From NCBI RefSeq assembly GCF_000382285.1, contig NZ_KB907925.1:186001-250000 (forward strand): DNA of 64,000 nucleotides, in the 5' to 3' direction. The notes beneath the pieces are model-generated. The model had not been told where the DNA came from. It made no database searches and was given only the letters and a program-made list of their open reading frames with translations. Position numbers and translations under genes: made by a program. The DNA comes from Solimonas variicoloris DSM 15731 (GTDB taxonomy: Bacteria > Pseudomonadota > Gammaproteobacteria > Nevskiales > Nevskiaceae). The stretch's first letter is position 1. Every line of letters starts with the position of its first letter. Shown here one piece after another: positions 1,549-11,567 of the stretch.

Positions 1549-1669
1549 CCCGCACGAACCGACGCGGTTCGGAGCGGCACCGGCGTTCCATTTCGCGGAG
1601 CGGACAACGCTCCCGGTGCTGCGCGACTTCCGCCGTCTTTGGGCCGGTCGGCGCCGTATACGGGTTTCC

Positions 1670-1706
1670 TATGCGCCGTCGTGCCGTCCAGCCTCGAATT
1701 CCTACG
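1670..1706 (+). promoter_or_regulatory. Bipartite promoter-like motif, copy A
   Basis: TATGC (1670-1674), 18 bases, then CTCGAATTCCTACG (1693-1706), ending 54 bases before the ATG of the small membrane protein at 1761. The same two boxes at the same 18-base spacing occur at 3341-3377 (+) and 3255-3291 (-), each 55-62 bases from a start codon. Upstream, GTATAC at 1656-1661 lines up with the TTTATA box of copy B. It looks like a promoter or a shared activator site; no known consensus was recognised. Confidence 0.55.
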
Positions 1707-1760
1707 GGCGTCCCGATTCCAATACCGACGCCGCATCCGCGGCCGCGTATCGGATTCGCC

Positions 1761-1874
1761 ATGAGCAGCTTGTTCTTTCTCGGCCTGGGTGTGAGCGGTG
1801 TGGTGCTGCTGTTGCTCTATGCCCGCAGCAAAAGCCGCCGCCAGCGTCAGTTGTACCGGCGCTCCCGCTCCTGA
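1761..1874 (+). CDS. Small single-pass membrane protein, paralogue of the pre-kdpF peptide
   Basis: 37 residues: one hydrophobic helix (LFFLGLGVSGVVLLLLYA) followed by a very basic tail (RSKSRRQRQLYRRSRS). The core FLGLGVxGxxLxLxY repeats in the 27-residue peptide at 3439 before kdpF, and both have the same bipartite upstream motif, so they look like duplicated cassettes. It lies 55 bases before the porin-like gene and may share its transcript. The positive-inside rule suggests the C-terminus faces the cytoplasm. Function unknown. No strong ribosome binding site is visible; conservation with the second copy is the main support for translation. Confidence 0.55.
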   Translation: MSSLFFLGLGVSGVVLLLLYARSKSRRQRQLYRRSRS

Positions 1875-1929
1875 AGGCGGGCCAGACCGCCGTCTCCGAT
1901 CGCGCCATCCATCCGCGCGAGGTTTTTCC

Positions 1930-2637
1930 ATGCATCTACTTACCAGCTTCCCGGCAGCGGCGTTCATCGCGGCTGCCTCGCTGGCGGCGCCGGCCGCCGC
2001 CACGGCATCCACCGCCACAGGCAATGTCGGCGCCTTCAGCGAATACCTGTATCGCGGTGTCGAGCAATCGAACGGCGCCGCGATCCAGGGCGGGATCGAC
2101 TACGCGCACGACAGCGGCCTGTACATCGGCACCTGGGCGTCGAACACCGATTTCGCCGGCAGCCAGGGCACGGTGTCGGACGAGATCGACGTCTACGGTG
2201 GCTACACGCATTCGTTTGGCGCGGTGACGATCGACGTCGGCGCCTACTTCTACTACTACCGCGACGATACCTCGCTCGACACCATCGAGTACTACCTCGG
2301 CCTGAGCGCCGGCCGTTTCGGGGCCAAGGCCTACTACACCGGCGACTACTTTGGCACCGACGAGGACGGCTTCTACGTCACGGCCAGCTATGCGCTGCCG
2401 CTCGGCGATACGCTGGCGCTGACGCCGCAGGTCGGCTACAGCGTTGGCGATGGCCCGCGCGCTTTCGTGATCGCGGCCTTCGATCCGGAGCCATCCGACC
2501 ATTACCTCGACTACAGCCTGACCCTGACCAAGACGCTGGACGATGGCCTGAGCTTCTCGCTGGCATTGATCGGCACCGATCTGCACGACGACGACGAAAA
2601 GGTGGTCGTGGGCCTGAAGAAAACGTTCGAGCTCTGA
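1930..2637 (+). CDS. TorF-family putative porin (TIGR02001/PF09694 type)
   Basis: 235 residues with a signal peptide (hydrophobic stretch to about residue 25, cleavage after an AAAT-AST region) and then alternating amphipathic beta strands rich in Tyr and Gly, ending in a C-terminal aromatic/hydrophobic residue pattern (KKTFEL), as in outer-membrane barrels. The early motif GAFSEYLYRGVEQSNG is characteristic of the gcw_chp/TorF family of small putative porins. The ATG at 1930 follows GAGG (1920-1922 region). It sits behind a small membrane protein and ahead of a strong terminator, near the kdp potassium operon. Substrate unknown. Confidence 0.85.
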   Translation: MHLLTSFPAAAFIAAASLAAPAAATASTATGNVGAFSEYLYRGVEQSNGAAIQGGIDYAHDSGLYIGTWASNTDFAGSQGTVSDEIDVYGGYTHSFGAVTIDVGAYFYYYRDDTSLDTIEYYLGLSAGRFGAKAYYTGDYFGTDEDGFYVTASYALPLGDTLALTPQVGYSVGDGPRAFVIAAFDPEPSDHYLDYSLTLTKTLDDGLSFSLALIGTDLHDDDEKVVVGLKKTFEL

Positions 2638-2658
2638 CGACTTCGTTCCGCGTAAAGC

Positions 2659-2687
2659 AAAAGGGCCGCAGCGATGCGGCCCTTTTT
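2659..2687 (+). terminator. Intrinsic terminator of the porin gene
   Basis: A perfect 12-bp stem (AAAAGGGCCGCA / TGCGGCCCTTTT) with a GCGA loop and a T run lies 21 bases after the porin stop codon. The A run on the other side makes it usable in both directions, so it also serves the convergent GNAT gene ending at 2705. Confidence 0.92.
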
Positions 2688-2704
2688 GCTGCGGATTCCC
2701 GCGT

Positions 2705-3199
2705 TCACGTTGGGCGCAGCGGGACGACCCTGGCGCCGTGACGGGCAATGTCGTGCGCCGGCGGGTGCTGCGCGACGTCGATCTCGAGCGTGATCGCGTA
2801 GTCGCGATAGCCGACGGAACGCCAGAAGGCGATTCCGGCGGGGTTGGCCGTCAGCGCTTCGACGGTCAGGCGCTTGCCGGCCGGCCAGATCCGCCGCCGC
2901 AGCAGTTCGACCGCGGAGCGGCCGACACCGTGGCGCCGCGCGTTCGGCAGGACCATGAATTGACGCAGGTAGATCTCCGCGGCGTGCTCGCGGAACAGCG
3001 CATACGCGCGCAGATGGCCGGCGGCGCTGAACAGCACCGCCCGATAGCGTCCCGAGCCGAGCCAGCGCTGGAAGCGCCGGCGCAATTCGACCGGGTCGGT
3101 CGGCCCGGTATCGGCACCGTCCCGTATCAGTTGCAGATTCAGCCAGGCCAGGGCCTTGCAGTCGTCGAAGCTGGCGTAGCGGTATTGCAGGGCGTCCAC
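2705..3199 (-). CDS. GNAT-family N-acetyltransferase
   Basis: 164 residues with the GNAT fold: strand/helix 1 (YRYASFDDCKALAWLNLQLI), then acetyl-CoA binding motif A around residues 90-110 (LPNARRHGVGRSAVELL, the Q/RxxGxG/A pyrophosphate loop), and motif B (LTANPAGIAFWRSVGY). It would transfer an acetyl group to an amine of a small molecule or protein; the acceptor is unknown. The start is GTG 3199, chosen because GGAGG lies 7 bases upstream. The promoter region, shared divergently with the kdp operon, carries the minus-strand copy of the bipartite motif, suggesting common control with the kdp-side genes. Confidence 0.88.
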   Translation of the reverse strand: MDALQYRYASFDDCKALAWLNLQLIRDGADTGPTDPVELRRRFQRWLGSGRYRAVLFSAAGHLRAYALFREHAAEIYLRQFMVLPNARRHGVGRSAVELLRRRIWPAGKRLTVEALTANPAGIAFWRSVGYRDYAITLEIDVAQHPPAHDIARHGARVVPLRPT

Positions 3200-3254
3200 C
3201 CGAAACCTCCGGTCTCGCCGCCGAGCGCGGCCGCTGCATTACAGGATTGCGGGA

Positions 3255-3291
3255 CGTAGGAAAACGAGATCGGACGATGCGCGCCGGCATA
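3255..3291 (-). promoter_or_regulatory. Bipartite promoter-like motif, copy C
   Basis: On the minus strand TATGC (3291-3287), 18 bases, then CTCGTTTTCCTACG (3268-3255), 55 bases before the GTG of the acetyltransferase gene. It matches copies A and B in 12 of 14 bases of the second box and all five of the first, at identical spacing. Confidence 0.5.
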
Positions 3292-3325
3292 GGCGCGGCA
3301 TAGGAATCCGGTGCCGCGCGGCGGA

Positions 3326-3342
3326 TTTATATGCGTTCTATA
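3326..3342 (+). promoter_or_regulatory. Candidate KdpE operator (direct repeat)
   Basis: TTTATA-N5-TCTATA, two half-sites 11 bases apart in an otherwise GC-rich intergenic region, 113 to 97 bases before the first small ORF of the kdp transcript. The E. coli KdpE site upstream of kdpFABC has the form TTTATA-N5-TTTACA as I recall it, so the geometry fits. KdpE itself is encoded at 10857. It is an inferred site. Confidence 0.5.
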
Positions 3343-3377
3343 TGCCCGGCGACGCGCCGGCGTCTCGAATTCCTACG
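3341..3377 (+). promoter_or_regulatory. Bipartite promoter-like motif, copy B (kdp operon)
   Basis: TATGC (3341-3345), 18 bases, CTCGAATTCCTACG (3364-3377), 61 bases before ATG 3439. The second box is identical to copy A over 14 bases. It overlaps the right half of the candidate KdpE repeat by two bases, as expected if a core promoter sits just downstream of an activator site. Confidence 0.55.
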
Positions 3378-3438
3378 CGCTCAAGCGCTCCAATGGCGCC
3401 TGCCGCAAAGGGCGGTGACCACTCAAGGAGTCGGACCC

Positions 3439-3522
3439 ATGGTCGACTTCATCTTCCTCGGACTGGGCGTGATCGGCTTCGCGCTGATGCTCGTCTACGT
3501 GCGCATCTGCCAGAACCTCTGA
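3439..3522 (+). CDS. 27-residue membrane peptide preceding kdpF
   Basis: A 27-residue ORF with a perfect AAGGAG ribosome binding site 8 bases before the ATG. It is almost entirely one transmembrane helix (FIFLGLGVIGFALMLVYV) ending in RICQNL. It is not KdpF, which follows separately at 3534, 11 bases after this stop codon. Similar tiny hydrophobic ORFs with a C-terminal R-x-C-x-x-L ending occur upstream of kdpF in other bacteria as far as I recall, usually unannotated. Likely co-translated with the Kdp complex, so a possible accessory subunit or assembly factor; this role is inference. Confidence 0.7.
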   Translation: MVDFIFLGLGVIGFALMLVYVRICQNL

Positions 3523-3533
3523 GTCGCACGGCC

Positions 3534-3620
3534 ATGCTCGATGACATCCTCGGCGGCTGCGTCGCCGCATTCCTCTTCGTCTACCTCGTCTACGTGCTCG
3601 CACGTCCCGAGAAGTTCTGA
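3534..3620 (+). CDS. kdpF: Potassium-transporting ATPase subunit KdpF
   Basis: 28 residues (MLDDILGGCVAAFLFVYLVY followed by VLARPEKF), one membrane helix with the VYxLxxPExF ending seen in KdpF of other proteobacteria. KdpF is the lipid-like stabiliser of the KdpABC high-affinity K+ pump. It lies between the unknown 27-residue peptide and kdpA, with 21 bases to the kdpA start, and is part of the same operon. The size and C-terminus match the family (E. coli KdpF is 29 residues). Confidence 0.9.
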   Translation: MLDDILGGCVAAFLFVYLVYVLARPEKF

Positions 3621-3641: not shown

Positions 3642-5351
3642 ATGACCGTCAACGGTTGGCTGCAAATTCTTTTCTATTGCGCGCTGCTGTTGCTGAGCGT
3701 GCGGCCGCTCGGCGGCTATCTGCATCGCCTGTTCGCCGGCGAGCGGGTGCTGCTCACGCCGGTGCTCGGCCTGATCGAGCGCGGTTTCTATCGCCTGGCC
3801 GGCGTCGATGCGAAGCAGGAGCAGGGCTGGCTCGCCTACGCGATCGCCATGCTGGTCTTCAACCTGCTCGGCTTCGTGCTGCTGTACGCGATGCTGCGCA
3901 CGCAGCAGTGGCTGCCGCTGAATCCGCAGCAGCTGCCGAATCTGCCTGCCGATCTCGCCTTCAATACGGCGATGAGCTTCACGACCAACACCAACTGGCA
4001 GGCGTACGGCGGCGAAGCGACGATGAGCTATTTCTCGCAAATGGTCGGACTCGCCGTGCAGAACTTCCTGTCGGCGGCGACCGGCATCGCGCTGGCGCTG
4101 GCGCTGATTCGCGGTTTCGCGCGCAAGTCGGCGCAGGCGATCGGCAACGCCTGGGTCGATCTGACGCGCGCCACGCTGTACCTGCTGCTGCCGGTCTGCC
4201 TGGTGTTCGCCGTGGTGCTGATCTGGCAGGGCGTGCCGCAGAACTTTTCCGCCTACATCGAGGCGACGACGCTGGAGGGCGCCAAACAGCTGATCGCGCA
4301 GGGCCCGATCGCCTCACAGGAAGTGATCAAGGTGCTCGGCACCAACGGCGGCGGCTTCCTCAATGCCAATTCCTCGCATCCGTTCGAGAACCCGACGCCG
4401 CTGAGCAATCTGGTCGAGATGCTGGCGATCTTCCTGATCGGCGCCGCGCTGACCGACGTGTTCGGCCGCGCCGTCGGCAACCGCTGGCAGGGCCACGCGA
4501 TCCTCGGCGCGATGATGGTGCTGTTCATCGCCGGCGTCGCCGCGGCGTACTGGGCGGAGAGCGCGGCGCCGAATGCGCTGGCGCATTTCGACGCCGTGCA
4601 GGCTACCGGCAATCTCGAAGGCAAGGAGACGCGCTTCGGCATCGCCAGCTCGGCGTTGTTCGCGGTGATCACCACGGCCGCGTCCTGCGGCGCCGTCAAT
4701 GCCATGCACGACAGCTTCACCGCGCTCGGCGGCGCCGTGCCGCTGCTCAACATGATGCTCGGCGAGGTCATCATCGGCGGCGTCGGCGCCGGCTTCTACG
4801 GCATGATGCTGTACGCGCTGATCGCGATCTTCATGGCGGGCCTGATGGTCGGCCGCACGCCGGAGTACGTCGGCAAGAAGATCGAGGCGCGCGAGATCAA
4901 GCTCGCCTCGCTCGCGGTGCTCGCCGCGCCGCTGGCGATCCTCGGCTTCACGGCGATCGCCTGCGTGCTGCCGGCCGGCCTCAAGGGGCTCGCCAATGCC
5001 GGCCCGCACGGCTTCTCCGAAATGCTCTACGCCTACAGCTCGGCCGCCGCTAACAACGGCAGCGCGTTCGCCGGCCTCTCCGCAAATTCGGTCTTCTACA
5101 ACGTGACGCTCGGCCTGGCGATGCTGATCGGCCGCTTCGCGATCATCGTGCCGATGCTGGCGATCGCCGGCAGCCTTGCCGCCAAGAAGCAGGTGCCCGC
5201 CTCGGCCGGCACGCTGCCGACCGACGGCGGTCTGTTCGTCGCGCTCGTCGTCGCCGTCGTCCTCGTCTTCGGCGGCCTTACCTTCCTGCCGTCGCTGGTC
5301 CTTGGCCCGATCGCCGAGCACGTGACGATGCTCGCCGGCAGCCGCTACTGA
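3642..5351 (+). CDS. kdpA: Potassium-transporting ATPase, K+-binding channel subunit KdpA
   Basis: 569 residues, inner-membrane channel-like subunit that selects K+ in the KdpFABC pump. The four degenerate selectivity-filter repeats are visible, including [12 protein letters not shown] near residue 115, [18 protein letters not shown] near 230, and [17 protein letters not shown] near 370. About ten transmembrane helices. GGGAG lies 6 bases before ATG 3642; an overlapping GTG one codon earlier is possible but leaves only 3 bases of spacing. Second gene of the structural set F-A-B-C, 32 bases before kdpB. Expected to be induced by K+ limitation through KdpD/KdpE encoded downstream. Confidence 0.98.
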
Positions 5352-5383: not shown

Positions 5384-7429
5384 ATGAAACCCGTTCAAGC
5401 CTCCGCGTCTTCCGGCTTGTGGATCGGCGCGCTCGTGGATGCCGCGCGCAAGCTCGATCCGCGCCGCCTGATTCGCAACCCGGTGATGTTCACGACCGGT
5501 CTCGTCGCCTGCGTCGCCACCGTGCTGTTCGTGCGCGATGCCATCGGCGGCGCGCCGCAGCTGCTGTTCTCCGGACAGATCATCGTCTGGCTGTGGTTCA
5601 CGGTGCTGTTCGCCAACTTCGCCGAGGCGCTCGCCGAAGGCCGTGGCAAGGCGCAGGCGGCGGCGCTGCGGCACACGCGCACGCAAACCCGCGCGCGGCG
5701 CCTGAATCGCAACGGCGGCGATGCCGCGTTCACCTGGGTCTCGGCCACCGAGCTGCGCGCCAACGATCTGGTGCGGGTGGAGGCCGGCGAATTCATTCCC
5801 GGCGACGGCGAAGTCGTCGAGGGCGTGGCGACCGTCGACGAGTCGGCGATCACCGGCGAATCGGCACCGGTGGTGCGCGAATCCGGCGGCGACCGCTCGG
5901 CCGTCACCGGCGGCACGCGCGTGCTGTCCGACTGGATCAAGATCCGCATCACCGCCGCCGGTTCCAGCTTCCTCGACCGCATGATCGCGCTGGTCGAGGG
6001 CGCGGCGCGGCAGAAGACGCCGAACGAGCTGGCGCTGAACGTGCTGCTCGCCGGCATGACGCTGATCTTCATCCTCGCCTGCGCGAGCATCCCGAGCTTC
6101 GCCGCATACGCCGGCGGCCAGGTGTCGGTGATCGTGCTGATCGCGCTGTTCGTGACACTGATCCCGACGACGATCGGCGCGCTGCTGTCGGCGATCGGCA
6201 TCGCCGGCATGAACCGTCTGGTGCGCTTCAACGTGCTGGCGATGTCCGGCCGTGCCGTCGAAGCTGCCGGCGATGTCGACACGCTGCTGCTCGACAAGAC
6301 CGGCACCATCACGCTCGGCAATCGCCAGGCCGCCGACTTCCTTCCGGCGCCGGGCATCGAGGCGCGCGAACTCGCCGAGGCGGCACAGCTCGCCAGCCTC
6401 GCCGACGAGACGCCGGAAGGGCGCTCGATCGTCGTATTGGCCAAGGAGCGCTTCGGCATCCGCGCGCGCGATGTCGCCGATCTGCACGCGCGCTTCGTGC
6501 CGTTCAGCGCGCAGACGCGCATGTCCGGCGTCGATCTCGGCGGCGGCGAGATCCGCAAGGGCGCGGTCGACGCGATCGTCGAGTACATCAAGGCGCACGG
6601 CCACGGCGAGCCGGTGCCGGGGGCGGTGCTCGAAGACGTCGAGCGCGTCGCCAAGGCCGGCGGCACGCCGCTGGCCGTGGCGCGCGACGGCCGCGTGCTC
6701 GGCATCGTGCATCTGAAGGACATCGTCAAGAACGGCATCAGGAGCCGCTTCGCCGAATTGCGCCGCATGGGCATCAAGACGGTGATGATCACCGGCGACA
6801 ATCCGCTGACCGCCGCCGCGATCGCCGCCGAAGCCGGCGTCGACGACTTCCTCGCGCAGGCCAAGCCGGAAGACAAGCTGGCGCTGATCCGCAGCGAACA
6901 GGCGCAGGGCAAGCTGGTGGCGATGTGCGGCGACGGCACCAACGACGCGCCGGCGCTGGCGCAGGCCGACGTCGGCGTGGCGATGCAGACCGGCACGCAG
7001 GCGGCGCGCGAGGCCGGCAACATGGTCGATCTCGATTCCGATCCGACCAAGCTCATCGAGATCGTCGCGATCGGCAAGCAGCTGCTGATCACGCGCGGCG
7101 CGCTGACCACGTTCTCGGTATCGAACGACGTCGCCAAGTACTTCGCGATCCTGCCGGCGATGTTCGCGACGATCTATCCGCCGCTGGCGGTGCTCAACAT
7201 CATGAAGCTCGGTTCGCCGCAGTCGGCGATCCTGTCGGCGACGATCTTCAACGCCCTCATCATCCTGCTGCTGGTGCCGCTGGCGCTGCGCGGCGTGAAG
7301 TACCGGCCGGCGCCGGCCGCCAGCCTGCTGGCGCGCAATCTGGCGATCTACGGCCTCGGCGGCCTCGTCGCGCCGTTCATCGGCATCAAGCTGATCGACC
7401 TCGCGCTCAATGCCATCGGTCTCGTCTGA
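5384..7429 (+). CDS. kdpB: Potassium-transporting P-type ATPase catalytic subunit KdpB
   Basis: 681 residues, against 682 in E. coli. It hydrolyses ATP to drive K+ uptake through KdpA. Visible motifs: actuator TGES (157-160), phosphorylation site DKTGTIT with the acceptor Asp at about 304, nucleotide-binding domain, TGDN (about 470) and hinge [10 protein letters not shown] (from about 516). The Ser of TGES is the residue whose phosphorylation inhibits E. coli KdpB. ATG 5384 has AGGAA upstream; an earlier in-frame GTG at 5357 would overlap the kdpA 3' region without a binding site. 12 bases separate it from kdpC. Confidence 0.98.
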
Positions 7430-7441
7430 GGAAATCCGGTC

Positions 7442-8026
7442 ATGAAAACCGTCCTGCGTCCTGCGCTGGTCATGCTGCTGCTGTTCACGCTGCTGACCGG
7501 CGTCGCTTATCCGCTTGCCGTCACCGGCCTCGGTCAGCTGCTGTTCCGCGCACAGGCGAACGGCTCGCTGCTCGAACGCGACGGCCAGCTCGTCGGCTCG
7601 GCCCTGCTTGGCCAGAACTTCAGCGCCGAGCGCTATTTCCACGGCCGCCCGTCGGCGGCGGGCAGCGCCGGTTACGACGCCAGCTCATCCAGCGGCAGCA
7701 ATCTCGGAGCGTCGAGCCAAGCGTTGCAGGATCGCATCGCCGGCGATGTGGCCAGGCTGCAGGCCGAAAACCCGGGTGTGCCGGTGCCGGCCGATCTCGT
7801 CACCGCCTCGGGCAGCGGTCTGGACCCGCACATCTCGCCGGACGGGGCGCTGTTCCAGGTGCCGCGCGTCGCCCGCGCGCGCGGTCTCGACGAGGCGAAG
7901 CTGCGCGCGCTGGTCGCGGCGCACGTCGAGGGGCGCACCCTGGGGTTGCTCGGCGAGCCGCGCGTCAACGTGCTCGAACTGAACCTGGCGCTGGATGCCG
8001 CTGCCGCGCCGAAGTCGGGGGAGTGA
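7442..8026 (+). CDS. kdpC: Potassium-transporting ATPase subunit KdpC
   Basis: 194 residues: one N-terminal membrane helix ([20 protein letters not shown]) and a periplasmic domain with the family motifs SALLGQNF near residue 55, YFHGRPSA near 67 and [13 protein letters not shown] near 120. KdpC joins KdpA and KdpB and is thought to raise K+ affinity. GAGGAAA lies just upstream of ATG 7442. About 120 bases separate it from kdpD, with no clear terminator, so the sensor kinase is probably on the same transcript. Confidence 0.97.
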
Positions 8027-8145: not shown

Positions 8146-10860
8146 GTGAACGCCGATCCGGCCGCGTCTGAGGGCGCGCGGCCGTCGCCCGACGCGTTGT
8201 TGCAGCAGGCGCAACAGGAAGGTCGCGGCAAGCTGAAGATTTTCCTCGGCGCTGCGCCCGGCGTCGGCAAGACCTACGAGATGCTGCAGGCGGCCCGGCG
8301 CAAGCGCGCCGAGGGCGTCGACGTGGTCGCCGGCATCGTCGAGACGCACGGGCGCAGCGAGACGGTGGCGCTGCTCGAAGGGCTGGAGGTGCTGGCGCGG
8401 CGGCGCGTGCCGTACCAGCAGCGCGAGCTCGACGAAATGGATCTCGACGCGCTGCTCGCGCGTCGCCCGCAGCTGGCGCTGGTCGACGAACTGGCGCACA
8501 CCAACGCGCCGGGCTCGCGGCACCCGAAGCGCTGGCAGGACGTGGTCGAGCTGCTCGACGCCGGCATCGATGTCTACTCGACGCTGAACATCCAGCATCT
8601 CGAAAGCCTCAACGATATCGTCGCCAGCATCACGCACGTGCGCGTGCGCGAAACGGTACCGGATTCGGTGCTCGAAGCGGCGCACGACATCGAGGTCGTC
8701 GACATCACGCCGGCCGATCTGATGCAGCGCCTGCGCGAAGGCAAGGTCTATCGCGGCGAGGCCGGCGAACGCGCGCTGCAGCACTACTTCACGCCGTCCA
8801 ATCTGACCGCGCTGCGCGAACTGGCGCTGCGCCGCACCGCCGACAGCGTCGACGAGCAGCTGCAGCAGCAGCGCCGCGCGCGCGGCGTCGAACAGGTCTG
8901 GGCGGCCGGCGACCGCGTGCTGGTCTGCATCGACGAATCGCCGGCCGGCGAGGCGCTGGTGCGACACGCCAAACGCGTCGCCGACCGTCTCGATGCGCCG
9001 TGGACCGCGCTGCACCTCGAAACCGCGCGCAGCCTGCAGCTCGGCGACGCCGGGCGCGCGCAGATCGCTGCCACGTTGCGTCTCGCCGAGCAGCTCGGCG
9101 CCGATACCCAGACGCTGCCGGGCGGCATGAGCATCGCCGACACCGTGCTGCGTCTGGTGCGCGAGCACAACGTCACGCAGCTGATCGTCGGCAAGTCGCG
9201 GCGCTCGGTCTTCTTCGAGTGGCGGCACGGTTCGGTGGTGCGCGAGCTGGTGCGCAAAGCCGACGGCATCACGGTGCAGGTGCTCGCCGCCGCGCCCGAC
9301 GCGCACCGGCAGCGGCGCCAGCGCGATGCCGGCCGGATCGAGCGGCGCTGGTCCTGGGGCTCCGGCGCCGATCACGTCCATGCGCTGCTGTATGCAGGCC
9401 TGGCCGCGGTGCTGGCCGTCGGCGTCGACCGCTGGCTCAGCGTGCCGAACGTGTCGATGGTCTTCCTGCCGGCGGTGATCCTCGCCGCCACGCGCTCCGG
9501 CCTGGTGCCGGGCCTGGTCTGTGCGCTGGCCAGCGCCACGCTCTACAACTTCCTGTTCCTGCCGCCGCTCTACACCTTCACGATCGGCGATCCGGCCAAC
9601 GTCGTGGCGCTGATCGCCTTCCTGCTGACCGCGGCGTTCACCAGCCGTCTGTCGGCGCAGGCCCGCGATCAGGCGCGGCTGGCCAGCGATCAGGCGATGC
9701 TCAACGGCGAGCTGCTGCAGTTCAGCCGCCAGATCGCCGGCCTGCGCCGGCTCGACGAGCTGATGGGCATCGCTGCCAAGCGCATCGCGCAAATGCTCGG
9801 CGTCGAGGCCGTGCTGCTGTCGTCCGATCCGGACGGCCTGCGTCTGCGCGGCGCCTCGTCGCCGCAGGCGGTGCTCGACGAGGCCGATCTGGCCGCCGCC
9901 AACTGGTGCCGCGACAAGGCGCAGCCGGCCGGGCGCGGCGCCGACACGCTGCCCGGCGGCAGATGGCTGTTCGTGCCGATGCTGTCCGAGCAGGCGGCGG
10001 TCGGTGTGATCGGCGTGCGCGGCGACGAGCGCCTGCGCCTCGGTGCCGGCCAGCGCCGCCTGCTCGACGCGCTCGCCGATCTCGTCGCGATCGGCACCGA
10101 GCGCATCCGCCTGGCCAAGGACGTCGACCAGGCCAAGATGCTGGCCGAGACCGAGAAGATGCGCGCCGCGCTGCTGACCTCGGTGTCGCACGATCTGCGC
10201 ACGCCGCTGGCCAGCATCCTCGGCGCGATCACCAGCGTGCGCTCCTACGGCGCGCTCTACGACGAGGCGGCGCGCGATGAGCTGCTGGCGACGGCGCAGG
10301 ACGAGACCGAGCGCATGAGCCGCTTCGTCGCCAACCTGCTCGACATGACCCGGCTCGACGCCGGCGCGCTGCAGGCCAGGCGCGAGCCCTGCGATCTGCA
10401 CGATATCGTCGCCGGCGCGGTGCGGCGCGCGCAGAAGCTGCTCGCGCAGCACCGGCTGCTGGTCGAGCTGCCGCGCGATCTGCCGTTCGTGCTCGCCGAT
10501 GCGGCGCTGCTCGAACAGGTGCTGGTCAATCTGCTCGACAACGCCGCCAAGTACGCGCCGGAAGGCAGCGAGATCACGATCGCCGCCCGCCAGCACCGCT
10601 ATGCGCTGACGCTGGCGGTCGCCGACCGCGGCGCCGGCGTGCCGGCGGCTGAGCAGGACCGCATCTTCGACGTGTTCTATCGCGTGCGGCAGGCCGACCG
10701 CCAGCGCGCCGGCACCGGCCTCGGCCTGACGATCTGCCGCGGCTTCGTGCAGGCGATGGGCGGCAGCATCCGCGTGCGCAACCGCGACGGCGGCGGCGCC
10801 GAATTCGAAGTGGAGTTCCCGGCCAGCCTGATCGTCGCCGTGAAGGCGCTGCCGGCATGA
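8146..10860 (+). CDS. kdpD: Sensor histidine kinase KdpD
   Basis: 904 residues. Order: KdpD N-terminal ATP-binding domain with Walker A GAAPGVGKT (35-43); a universal-stress-protein-like domain (about 250-370, LVCIDESPAGEALVRHAKR); four closely spaced membrane helices (about 405-500); GAF domain; dimerisation domain with the phospho-acceptor His 682 in SHDLRTPL; and the HATPase domain (NLLDNAAKYAP, GTGLGLTICRGF). Senses K+ limitation and salt stress and controls KdpE phosphorylation. GTG start 8146 follows a weak GACGGAA. The stop overlaps the kdpE start (ATGA), so the two are translationally coupled. Confidence 0.97.
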   Translation: MNADPAASEGARPSPDALLQQAQQEGRGKLKIFLGAAPGVGKTYEMLQAARRKRAEGVDVVAGIVETHGRSETVALLEGLEVLARRRVPYQQRELDEMDLDALLARRPQLALVDELAHTNAPGSRHPKRWQDVVELLDAGIDVYSTLNIQHLESLNDIVASITHVRVRETVPDSVLEAAHDIEVVDITPADLMQRLREGKVYRGEAGERALQHYFTPSNLTALRELALRRTADSVDEQLQQQRRARGVEQVWAAGDRVLVCIDESPAGEALVRHAKRVADRLDAPWTALHLETARSLQLGDAGRAQIAATLRLAEQLGADTQTLPGGMSIADTVLRLVREHNVTQLIVGKSRRSVFFEWRHGSVVRELVRKADGITVQVLAAAPDAHRQRRQRDAGRIERRWSWGSGADHVHALLYAGLAAVLAVGVDRWLSVPNVSMVFLPAVILAATRSGLVPGLVCALASATLYNFLFLPPLYTFTIGDPANVVALIAFLLTAAFTSRLSAQARDQARLASDQAMLNGELLQFSRQIAGLRRLDELMGIAAKRIAQMLGVEAVLLSSDPDGLRLRGASSPQAVLDEADLAAANWCRDKAQPAGRGADTLPGGRWLFVPMLSEQAAVGVIGVRGDERLRLGAGQRRLLDALADLVAIGTERIRLAKDVDQAKMLAETEKMRAALLTSVSHDLRTPLASILGAITSVRSYGALYDEAARDELLATAQDETERMSRFVANLLDMTRLDAGALQARREPCDLHDIVAGAVRRAQKLLAQHRLLVELPRDLPFVLADAALLEQVLVNLLDNAAKYAPEGSEITIAARQHRYALTLAVADRGAGVPAAEQDRIFDVFYRVRQADRQRAGTGLGLTICRGFVQAMGGSIRVRNRDGGGAEFEVEFPASLIVAVKALPA

Positions 10861-11567
10861 GCCTGCACGCCGCGCGCATCCTCGTCGTCGACGACGAGAA
10901 GCCGATCCGCAAGCTGCTGCGCACCACGCTCGCCGCCCAGGACTACGAAGTGCTCGAAGCCGGCGACGCGCGCAGCGCGCTGCAGCTGCTGCGCGAACAG
11001 GCGCCGGATCTGCTGATCCTCGACCTCGGCCTGCCCGACCGCGACGGCCTCGAGCTGCTGCGCGAGATTCGCGCGGCCTCCGATCTGCCGGTGCTGATCC
11101 TGTCGAGCCGCGACTTCGAGGCCGCCAAGGTGCAGGCGCTCGACGAGGGCGCCGACGACTACGTGGCCAAGCCGTTCGGCACCGAGGAGCTGATGGCGCG
11201 TCTGCGCGCCGCGCTGCGCCATCGCGTGCAGCGCCAGGGCGCGCGGCCGCTGTACCGCAGCGGTCCGCTCCGGGTCGATCTGGTGCGGCGCCTGGTGTGG
11301 GTCGGCGACGTCGAGGTCAAGCTGTCGCCGAAGGAATACGCGCTGCTCGAACAGCTGGTGCTGCACGCCGGCAAGGTGCTCACGCACCGGCACCTGATGA
11401 AAGCGGTCTGGGGCGAGGCGGCCGATACCGACGTCCAGTACCTGCGCATCTACGTGCGCCAGCTGCGCCAGAAGCTCGAACGCGACGCCACGCAGGGCGC
11501 GCTGATCCAGACCGAGGCCGGCGTCGGGTATCGTTTGCGCGAATCCGAGCCACCGACCCCGTCCTGA
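10857..11567 (+). CDS. kdpE: Response regulator KdpE
   Basis: 236 residues: receiver domain with acidic pair DDE near residue 11, phospho-Asp about 56 (LILDLGLPDRDG), and Lys about 106 (VAKPFG), followed by an OmpR/PhoB winged-helix domain (SPKEYALLEQLVLHAGKVLT ... VRQLRQKLE). Cytoplasmic transcription activator of the kdp operon. The ATG lies inside the kdpD stop. A thioesterase gene begins 2 bases after its stop, so the operon appears to continue into unrelated metabolic genes. Confidence 0.97.
   Translation: MSLHAARILVVDDEKPIRKLLRTTLAAQDYEVLEAGDARSALQLLREQAPDLLILDLGLPDRDGLELLREIRAASDLPVLILSSRDFEAAKVQALDEGADDYVAKPFGTEELMARLRAALRHRVQRQGARPLYRSGPLRVDLVRRLVWVGDVEVKLSPKEYALLEQLVLHAGKVLTHRHLMKAVWGEAADTDVQYLRIYVRQLRQKLERDATQGALIQTEAGVGYRLRESEPPTPS

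Follow-up and report, generated by a model that had tools for sequence, protein, structure and literature searches.

Which factor reads the bipartite motif that stands in front of three transcription units around the potassium uptake operon kdp of Solimonas variicoloris DSM 15731? The motif, TATGC-N18-CTCGWWTTCCTACG, was found in a window of 64,000 nucleotides (the whole stretch of DNA that was analyzed; contig NZ_KB907925.1, positions 186,001 to 250,000) upstream of a porin cassette, of an acetyltransferase gene, and of kdp itself. An earlier note on this DNA had attributed it to a dedicated sigma factor or activator that ties the three together. A common factor is indeed the most likely explanation, but a new sigma factor is not needed; KdpE is the simplest candidate. 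The three copies are very probably KdpE-dependent promoters, most simply under the control of the KdpE encoded in the same cluster. This kind of promoter is known; its extended form, the porin and the acetyltransferase as predicted targets, and a conserved small open reading frame (ORF) did not turn up in the open-access literature searched.

The motif is present in three exact copies

The pattern occurs in exactly three perfect copies in the window, all within 1.7 kb (1670-1706 and 3341-3377 on the plus strand, 3255-3291 on the minus strand), and the fixed spacing on both strands was borne out at each of these coordinates. The minus-strand copy, which precedes the acetyltransferase gene, is divergent from the kdp copy. 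The 18-base spacers of the three copies differ in sequence while the boxes and distances are exact, which argues for selection rather than leftover similarity. A fourth copy was found neither in the window nor in the 4.12-Mb genome when up to three mismatches were allowed, and thus the motif is not scattered through this genome; the earlier note had named a motif equally common inside coding sequence as a refutation. Dinucleotide shuffles of the window yielded 0 matches in 100, and the expectation from the base composition of the window is 1.4e-5 matches per genome, in agreement with the earlier view that a chance origin is very unlikely. An origin from coding sequence or from a repeat was rejected on the basis of the shuffles and of the lack of any other genomic copy. 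The distances to the start codons are 54 base pairs (bp) (ATG 1761), 61 bp (ATG 3439), and 55 bp (GTG 3199), and the range of 54 to 61 bases given before is thus correct, but on the plus strand these are the starts of small ORFs, one of 37 codons before the porin gene and one of 27 codons before kdpF.

A probable KdpE-type promoter encloses the motif

The motif is embedded in a longer element, and TATGC corresponds to the second half-site of a KdpE-type box. All three copies contain two 6-bp direct repeats that are separated by 5 bp, a feature of KdpE-dependent promoters in the wide sense. The layout is that of the published KdpE box, although no published consensus had been recognized before; by eye, no match to the consensus hexamers of sigma-54, FliA, or extracytoplasmic function (ECF) sigma factors was seen. 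The "TATA-type bases" that had been described upstream of two copies overlap the first half-sites of the direct repeat (1657-1662, 3328-3333), and such an element is not confined to two copies, as the minus-strand copy also has this half-site (CCTATG, 3304-3299). The three putative promoters are as follows (R1 is the sequence model described below):

1657..1723, plus strand: KdpE-type promoter of the porin cassette (found by R1 at 1657-1726, 34.0 bits); half-sites TATACG 1657-1662 and CCTATG 1668-1673, then N19; -35-like TCGAAT 1694-1699, third half-site-like CCTACG 1701-1706, -10-like TCCAAT 1718-1723

3238..3304, minus strand: KdpE-type promoter of the acetyltransferase gene (exact motif match; R1 16.2 bits); half-sites CCTATG 3304-3299 and CCTATG 3293-3288, then N19; -35-like TCGTTT 3267-3262, third half-site-like CCTACG 3260-3255, -10-like TGTAAT 3243-3238

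3328..3394, plus strand: KdpE-type promoter of kdp (R1 49.9 bits); half-sites TATATG 3328-3333 and TATATG 3339-3344 (in an alternative register two bases earlier, TTTATA and TCTATA), then N19; -35-like TCGAAT 3365-3370, third half-site-like CCTACG 3372-3377, -10-like TCCAAT 3389-3394

The sequence CTCGaaTTCCTACG spans the -35-like TCGAAT and the third half-site-like hexamer, and the -10-like hexamer lies downstream of it. Counted from the start of the box, TCGAAN at 37-42 probably represents the -35 region, and the hexamer at 61-66 (CCTAAT, TCCAAT, CATATT, GATACT) probably the -10 region; the latter is unconvincing in Bradyrhizobium. If the start of transcription is assumed to lie 7 bp after the -10-like hexamer, the box is at about -73 to -57. 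Just inside the -35 region, 33 bp after the second half-site, a conserved hexamer is found (CCTACG here, TTTATG in Mesorhizobium) that resembles a third KdpE half-site.

The promoter layout is conserved upstream of kdp

In the family, 58 genomes were analyzed, and kdpA was found at 39 places in 37 of them. For 32 of these places the upstream region was searched for half-sites and a CTCG core, with the gap between them left free. The gap between the second half-site and the core was 19 bp in 30 of the 32 regions; in G037 it was 20 bp, and G008 had no good core. The remaining seven places comprise two that are cut by contig ends, those of G005 to G007 without CTCGA, that of G039, where the core is the variant ATCGA (gap 19 bp), and, in G024, the second kdp, with the core present but a poor box. 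In G005 to G008 the KdpE box is kept and CTCGA is replaced by ATNGAG; at fixed offsets from the box all four have T-N-G-A at 37-40 and GATACT at 61, and the hexamer at offset 44 is TTTACG (G005) or TTAGCG. When the motif pattern was searched with up to two mismatches in the family genomes except this one and its near twin G038, 11 of the 14 matches were located just upstream of kdpA, while three (G011, G015, G044) were not near kdpA. Matches with three mismatches were not counted, because a backward control pattern matches at that level too. Degenerate forms were thus present upstream of orthologous kdp genes, and also of orthologous acetyltransferase genes (see below), so that the absence at orthologs that might have refuted the motif was not observed.

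The layout was also detected at 62 of 80 other kdpA loci, mainly alphaproteobacterial by title, with a gap of 19 in 60 cases and of 20 in two cases. Two more loci passed at odd gaps and look like chance, and 16 did not pass, eight of which are sphingomonad loci with the promoter before a porin gene, outside the scanned stretch. In the controls, 4 of 80 reversed sequences (one at gap 19) and, at any gap, 8.4 of 80 single-base shuffled sequences passed.

For an analysis of offsets, promoters were picked that have at least four of the five letters of CTCGA (65 of the 80 loci) or three of the five (31 of the 32 family regions), and removal of redundancy left 28 and 20 promoters, respectively. Both sets had their highest half-site scores at the offsets 0, 11, and 44 bp; offsets 0 and 11 had been used in the choice of the sites, offset 44 had not. 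The half-site threshold was reached at offset 44 in 24 of 28 and 14 of 20 promoters, compared to a mean of 0.87 (highest value 7) in the first set and 0.46 (highest value 11) in the second set at the other offsets from 18 to 83. The value of 11 belongs to offset 62, a position that coincides in part with the -10-like hexamer. T37, G39, and A40 are kept together in 26 of 28 and 18 of 20 promoters, in which case the letters were part of the site choice.

A sequence model finds the kdp and porin copies genome-wide

A sequence model of 74 positions, R1, was built from the kdp promoters of 28 of the 32 family regions. This genome (G000) and its near twin G038 were omitted, so that this genome stayed a test case, as were G008 (no core) and G037 (20-bp gap). 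R1 was run on the 58 genomes with Infernal under the stricter filters. In this genome the kdp copy (E=1.2e-12) and the porin copy (E=1.1e-7) were both clear, and three unrelated matches had E-values of 0.047, 0.63, and 0.82. On the window alone, with the filters off, the three copies were the top three matches; the acetyltransferase copy had an E-value of 0.0006, and the next match followed at 0.26. Two matches, in G057:C8 and G005:C10, resemble coding sequence and were regarded as chance. R1 was also applied to 12 genomes from other lineages; by coordinate arithmetic, a match coincided with the known kdp or porin promoter in 10 of them and was the best match in eight, whereas the promoter was missed in G060 and G065. 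Most E-values in these genomes were between 0.005 and 0.3, and, thus, R1 was not used for the counting of targets there.

The kdp cluster encodes the candidate activator

The kdp promoter is located upstream of kdp genes in a genome that also encodes KdpD and KdpE, and kdpE lies 7.5 kb downstream. The cluster consists of the following genes:

3534..3620, plus strand: kdpF (PF09604 E=8.6e-7, TIGR02115 E=1.6e-8)

3642..5351, plus strand: kdpA (TIGR00680 E=3e-232)

5384..7429, plus strand: kdpB, P-type ATPase (PF00122 E=6.7e-30, PF00702 E=2.7e-25), named because of its position between kdpA and kdpC; start codon chosen by eye

7442..8026, plus strand: kdpC (PF02669 E=1e-76)

8146..10860, plus strand: kdpD, sensor kinase (PF02702 E=1e-97; NF007793 (PRK10490) below its cut-off)

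10857..11567, plus strand: kdpE, response regulator of the OmpR type, the proposed activator of the three promoters

The best NCBIfam match of KdpE is the KdpE model PRK10529, at 214 bits, which is below its cut-off of 325. In an alignment with the E. coli protein 104 of 225 positions are identical, and D52 as well as the published DNA-contact residues R193, R200, and T215 are conserved.

Further KdpE-type sites were seen outside the three promoters. Upstream of a kdpD-like gene in G022 (L179) and G012 (L192) a KdpE box without a CTCG core is present, which suggests that kdpDE may be autoregulated. In Azospirillum cavernae (L252) two short ORFs that resemble membrane proteins are preceded by a second KdpE-type promoter, about 530 bp upstream of that of kdp, and in Bradyrhizobium sp. 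ARR65 (L251, G069:C7:224728-224788) such a promoter with a 19-bp gap precedes a gene of no known identity. A core promoter match was also seen before a short membrane-protein-like ORF (L176, G022:C533:1148-1197).

Genes behind the three putative promoters

The first gene after the promoter is a small ORF in two of the cases, and the porin and acetyltransferase genes complete the set:

1761..1874, plus strand: 37-codon ORF (MSSLFFLGLGVSGVVLLLLYARSK...), between the porin-cassette promoter and the porin gene

1930..2637, plus strand: putative porin of the TorF family (PF09694 E=3e-33; TIGR02001 E=1.6e-43), N-terminal helix signal-peptide-like

2705..3199, minus strand: GNAT-family acetyltransferase, GTG start (PF00583 E=1.1e-6)

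3439..3522, plus strand: 27-codon ORF before kdpF, one likely membrane span (MVDFIFLGLGVIGFALMLVYVRICQNL)

The porin scored 149 bits against the TorF family model (cut-off 47). Its predicted structure, of moderate confidence, is a barrel with 13 strands (mean predicted local distance difference test, pLDDT, 70; predicted template modelling score, pTM, 0.65). Foldseek matched it to outer-membrane porins and channels; the best E-values belonged to general porins with low template modelling (TM) scores, and the highest target-normalised TM-score among the 50 matches listed was 0.75, for the small channel KdgM. At eight of the 80 loci, all in sphingomonads, a porin gene directly precedes the small ORF and kdpF. 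All eight porins belong to PF09694, and in all eight cases the promoter lies before the TorF-porin-kdp operon, with a gap of 18 in five and of 19 in three cases. The same order, TorF then kdpF with the promoter before TorF and a gap of 18, was found on three annotated Sphingomonas plasmids, two of which also show kdpA and kdpB in their records; a fourth plasmid TorF is 27% identical and not beside kdp. In a small midpoint-rooted tree, calculated without other sphingomonad TorF proteins, the porin of the window groups with the TorF proteins of the family, away from those of sphingomonads, and this separation suggests that TorF may have been recruited beside kdp twice, in this lineage and in sphingomonads. 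This genome has another TorF gene, which is located close to genes for P-II and an ammonium transporter. Potassium and ammonium ions are similar in size, and, thus, related TorF channels for both uptake systems are plausible.

Orthologs of the acetyltransferase (E<=1e-15) are present in eight of the 58 family genomes, which belong to two genera and all have kdpA; identity to those of the other genus is about 55%. Six of the orthologs are outside this genus; for four of them a CTCGATTTCCWACG core stands at the head of the likely transcription unit, and in all four units the KdpE box is found 52 bp before the core (19+33, i.e., 33 bp further upstream). At least in G012 and G022 the promoter is separated from the acetyltransferase gene by another ORF. 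The remaining two orthologs adjoin kdpD, directly before it in G021, where both genes are on a different contig from kdpA, and between kdpC and kdpD in G025. The proteins of G022 and G024 are fusions of the acetyltransferase with an SLT domain of lytic transglycosylases (L241 5608-7011, L242 3631-4983).

A small ORF of 26-27 residues with a single likely membrane span was seen by eye before kdpF in 30 of the 32 family regions (it is absent in G008 and G029) and at all 80 other loci; a loose script filter, applied without a chance control, gave 31 of 32 and 80 of 80. Its last residues usually read C-[DE]-R-[LIV] or a similar sequence. The 37-codon ORF is probably a paralog of the ORF before kdpF, as in a tblastn comparison the 27-residue ORF was 54.5% identical over 22 residues to the copy in G038, which is identical to that of the window. 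No Pfam or NCBIfam family matched the 37-codon ORF over the curated cut-off, and no relevant NCBIfam or Pfam family was found for seven members of the small ORF including that of the window (Pfam: six of the seven). In five plasmid records examined the small ORF is unannotated, its presence having been checked with a script for three of them and by inspection for the other two, and it is flagged as missed by annotation in these records; the PLSDB gene table is incomplete, so that annotation elsewhere is possible. A KdpF-like peptide used as a query against plasmids matched nothing, and this search was disregarded. In G041 (L135) an extra membrane-type ORF of 38 residues is located between the small ORF and kdpF.

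Weighing KdpE control against the alternatives

Several observations weigh against KdpE control of all three promoters. The literal TTTA of E. coli is absent from the half-sites of the window (TATATG, TATACG, CCTATG), and its loss abolished binding in E. coli (PMC3264566). TTTA is present in the half-sites of most family relatives, and the half-sites of the window were classed as a lineage variant rather than as an E. coli-type box. In the genome-wide search with R1 the acetyltransferase copy was weak on its own, with an E-value of 0.17 behind the unrelated match at 0.047. The -35 and -10 regions were assigned by eye, and CTCGA was used for the picking of sites both in the scan of the 80 loci and in the offset analysis. 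The gap of 18 instead of 19 in five of the eight sphingomonad porin promoters and on the three plasmids weakens a strict 11-bp phasing. Within the family TorF is next to kdp only in this genome and in its near twin G038 (the contig of G041 is too short), and the TorF loci elsewhere in the family were rejected as further targets, as no promoter match was found in the 28 that were searched, of 58 other match rows. Lastly, kdpFABC has been called the sole target of KdpE in E. coli, while the same study adds adeP, uxaA, and uxaC as direct candidates (PMC7657598).

The best of the alternatives, which we consider unlikely, is that KdpE works together with a separate factor that recognizes the CTCGaaTTCCTACG box, either an alternative sigma factor or a second activator. 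In favor of this, the CTCGaaTTCCTACG box is unchanged where the KdpE box is situated 33 bp further upstream, and A47, which was not used in site picking, is conserved in the non-redundant promoters of both sets (27 of 28 and 19 of 20). For Caulobacter, kdp has been described as driven from a SigT promoter as well (PMC8552747). However, T-N-G-A, an 18-bp spacer, and CCTAAT, CATATT, or GATACT fit an ordinary weak sigma-70 promoter, and the genome contains no further copy of the motif. In addition, the four genomes G005 to G008 (g4) lose CTCGA, but in its place they keep another T-N-G-A, which is followed by GATACT after 18 bp. A new sigma factor as the sole reader of the motif was judged unnecessary, since -35-like and -10-like hexamers are present.

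It is very improbable that the three copies arose by recent duplication of a single segment with the kdp promoter and that the kdp copy alone is functional. Their location within 1.7 kb fits such an origin, as does the probable paralog of the ORF after the kdp copy that accompanies the porin copy; however, the spacers differ while the boxes and distances are exact, the acetyltransferase orthologs carry the promoter in another genus, and the porin link is seen independently in sphingomonads. A chance origin, or a repeat family without a role in regulation, has no observation in its favor and is practically negligible in view of the shuffles and of the position upstream of kdp that is conserved across genera.

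Under KdpE control the following sequence of events would be expected. When potassium is scarce, KdpD would phosphorylate KdpE, and KdpE dimers would bind the pair of direct half-sites (spacing 11 bp, center near -65). Bound KdpE would then recruit RNA polymerase to a weak promoter in which 18 bp separate a -35-like TCGAAN from a -10-like hexamer (TCCAAT here; CCTAAT, CATATT, or GATACT elsewhere). A single signal might in this way induce the Kdp pump with the small membrane ORF, the TorF channel with the paralogous small ORF, and the GNAT acetyltransferase. Sequence, spacing, conservation, and gene neighbourhoods are the observations from which we infer KdpE binding, the start sites, control by potassium, and the passage of potassium through the channel. 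The promoters before the genes for an outer-membrane channel and an acetyltransferase suggest that potassium shortage may be answered at the outer membrane too. A wider picture is put forward tentatively, as somewhat more doubtful than probable: KdpE would command the entry of potassium at the outer membrane via TorF, which would have been recruited at least twice, three helically phased half-sites (0, 11, and 44 bp) would be used, the third within the core promoter, and the 27-residue membrane protein would be a standard part of alphaproteobacterial-type Kdp systems.

Comparison with known systems

Kdp is a model for high-affinity potassium uptake. Among the open-access papers listed in searches on porins together with Kdp, none was about the outer-membrane step of Kdp uptake. 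Likewise, neither a KdpE regulon that reaches an outer-membrane channel, nor an acetyltransferase target, nor the extended promoter, nor the small membrane ORF before kdpF was found in the open-access literature searched. A conserved promoter that would place a channel under KdpE makes the outer-membrane step testable, and the promoter layout may serve as a sequence rule for the finding of KdpE targets across Alphaproteobacteria. For Caulobacter, a second kdp promoter, possibly regulated by KdpDE, has been described as yet to be identified (PMC8552747).

The TorF family (TIGR02001/PF09694) shares its sequence family and the predicted barrel with the porin of the window; the other copy of this genome is found near P-II and ammonium genes, whereas the copy of the window lies behind a Kdp-type promoter. 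The KdpE site of E. coli kdpFABC, TTTATA-N5-TTTACA, was shown by electrophoretic mobility shift assay, with a footprint from -72 to -50 (PMC3264566). Like that site, the element described here is a pair of 6-bp direct repeats with a 5-bp interval, which lies upstream of kdp and at a similar distance from the inferred -10 region. Unlike that site, it has the half-sites TATATG, TATACG, and CCTATG, a constant CTCGAA-type box, and a third half-site-like hexamer, and it is carried by three promoters. The kdp operon is the core target in the E. coli KdpE regulon as well as here, while an outer-membrane porin and an acetyltransferase are predicted as targets in Solimonas variicoloris, in contrast to the regulon described for E. 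coli.

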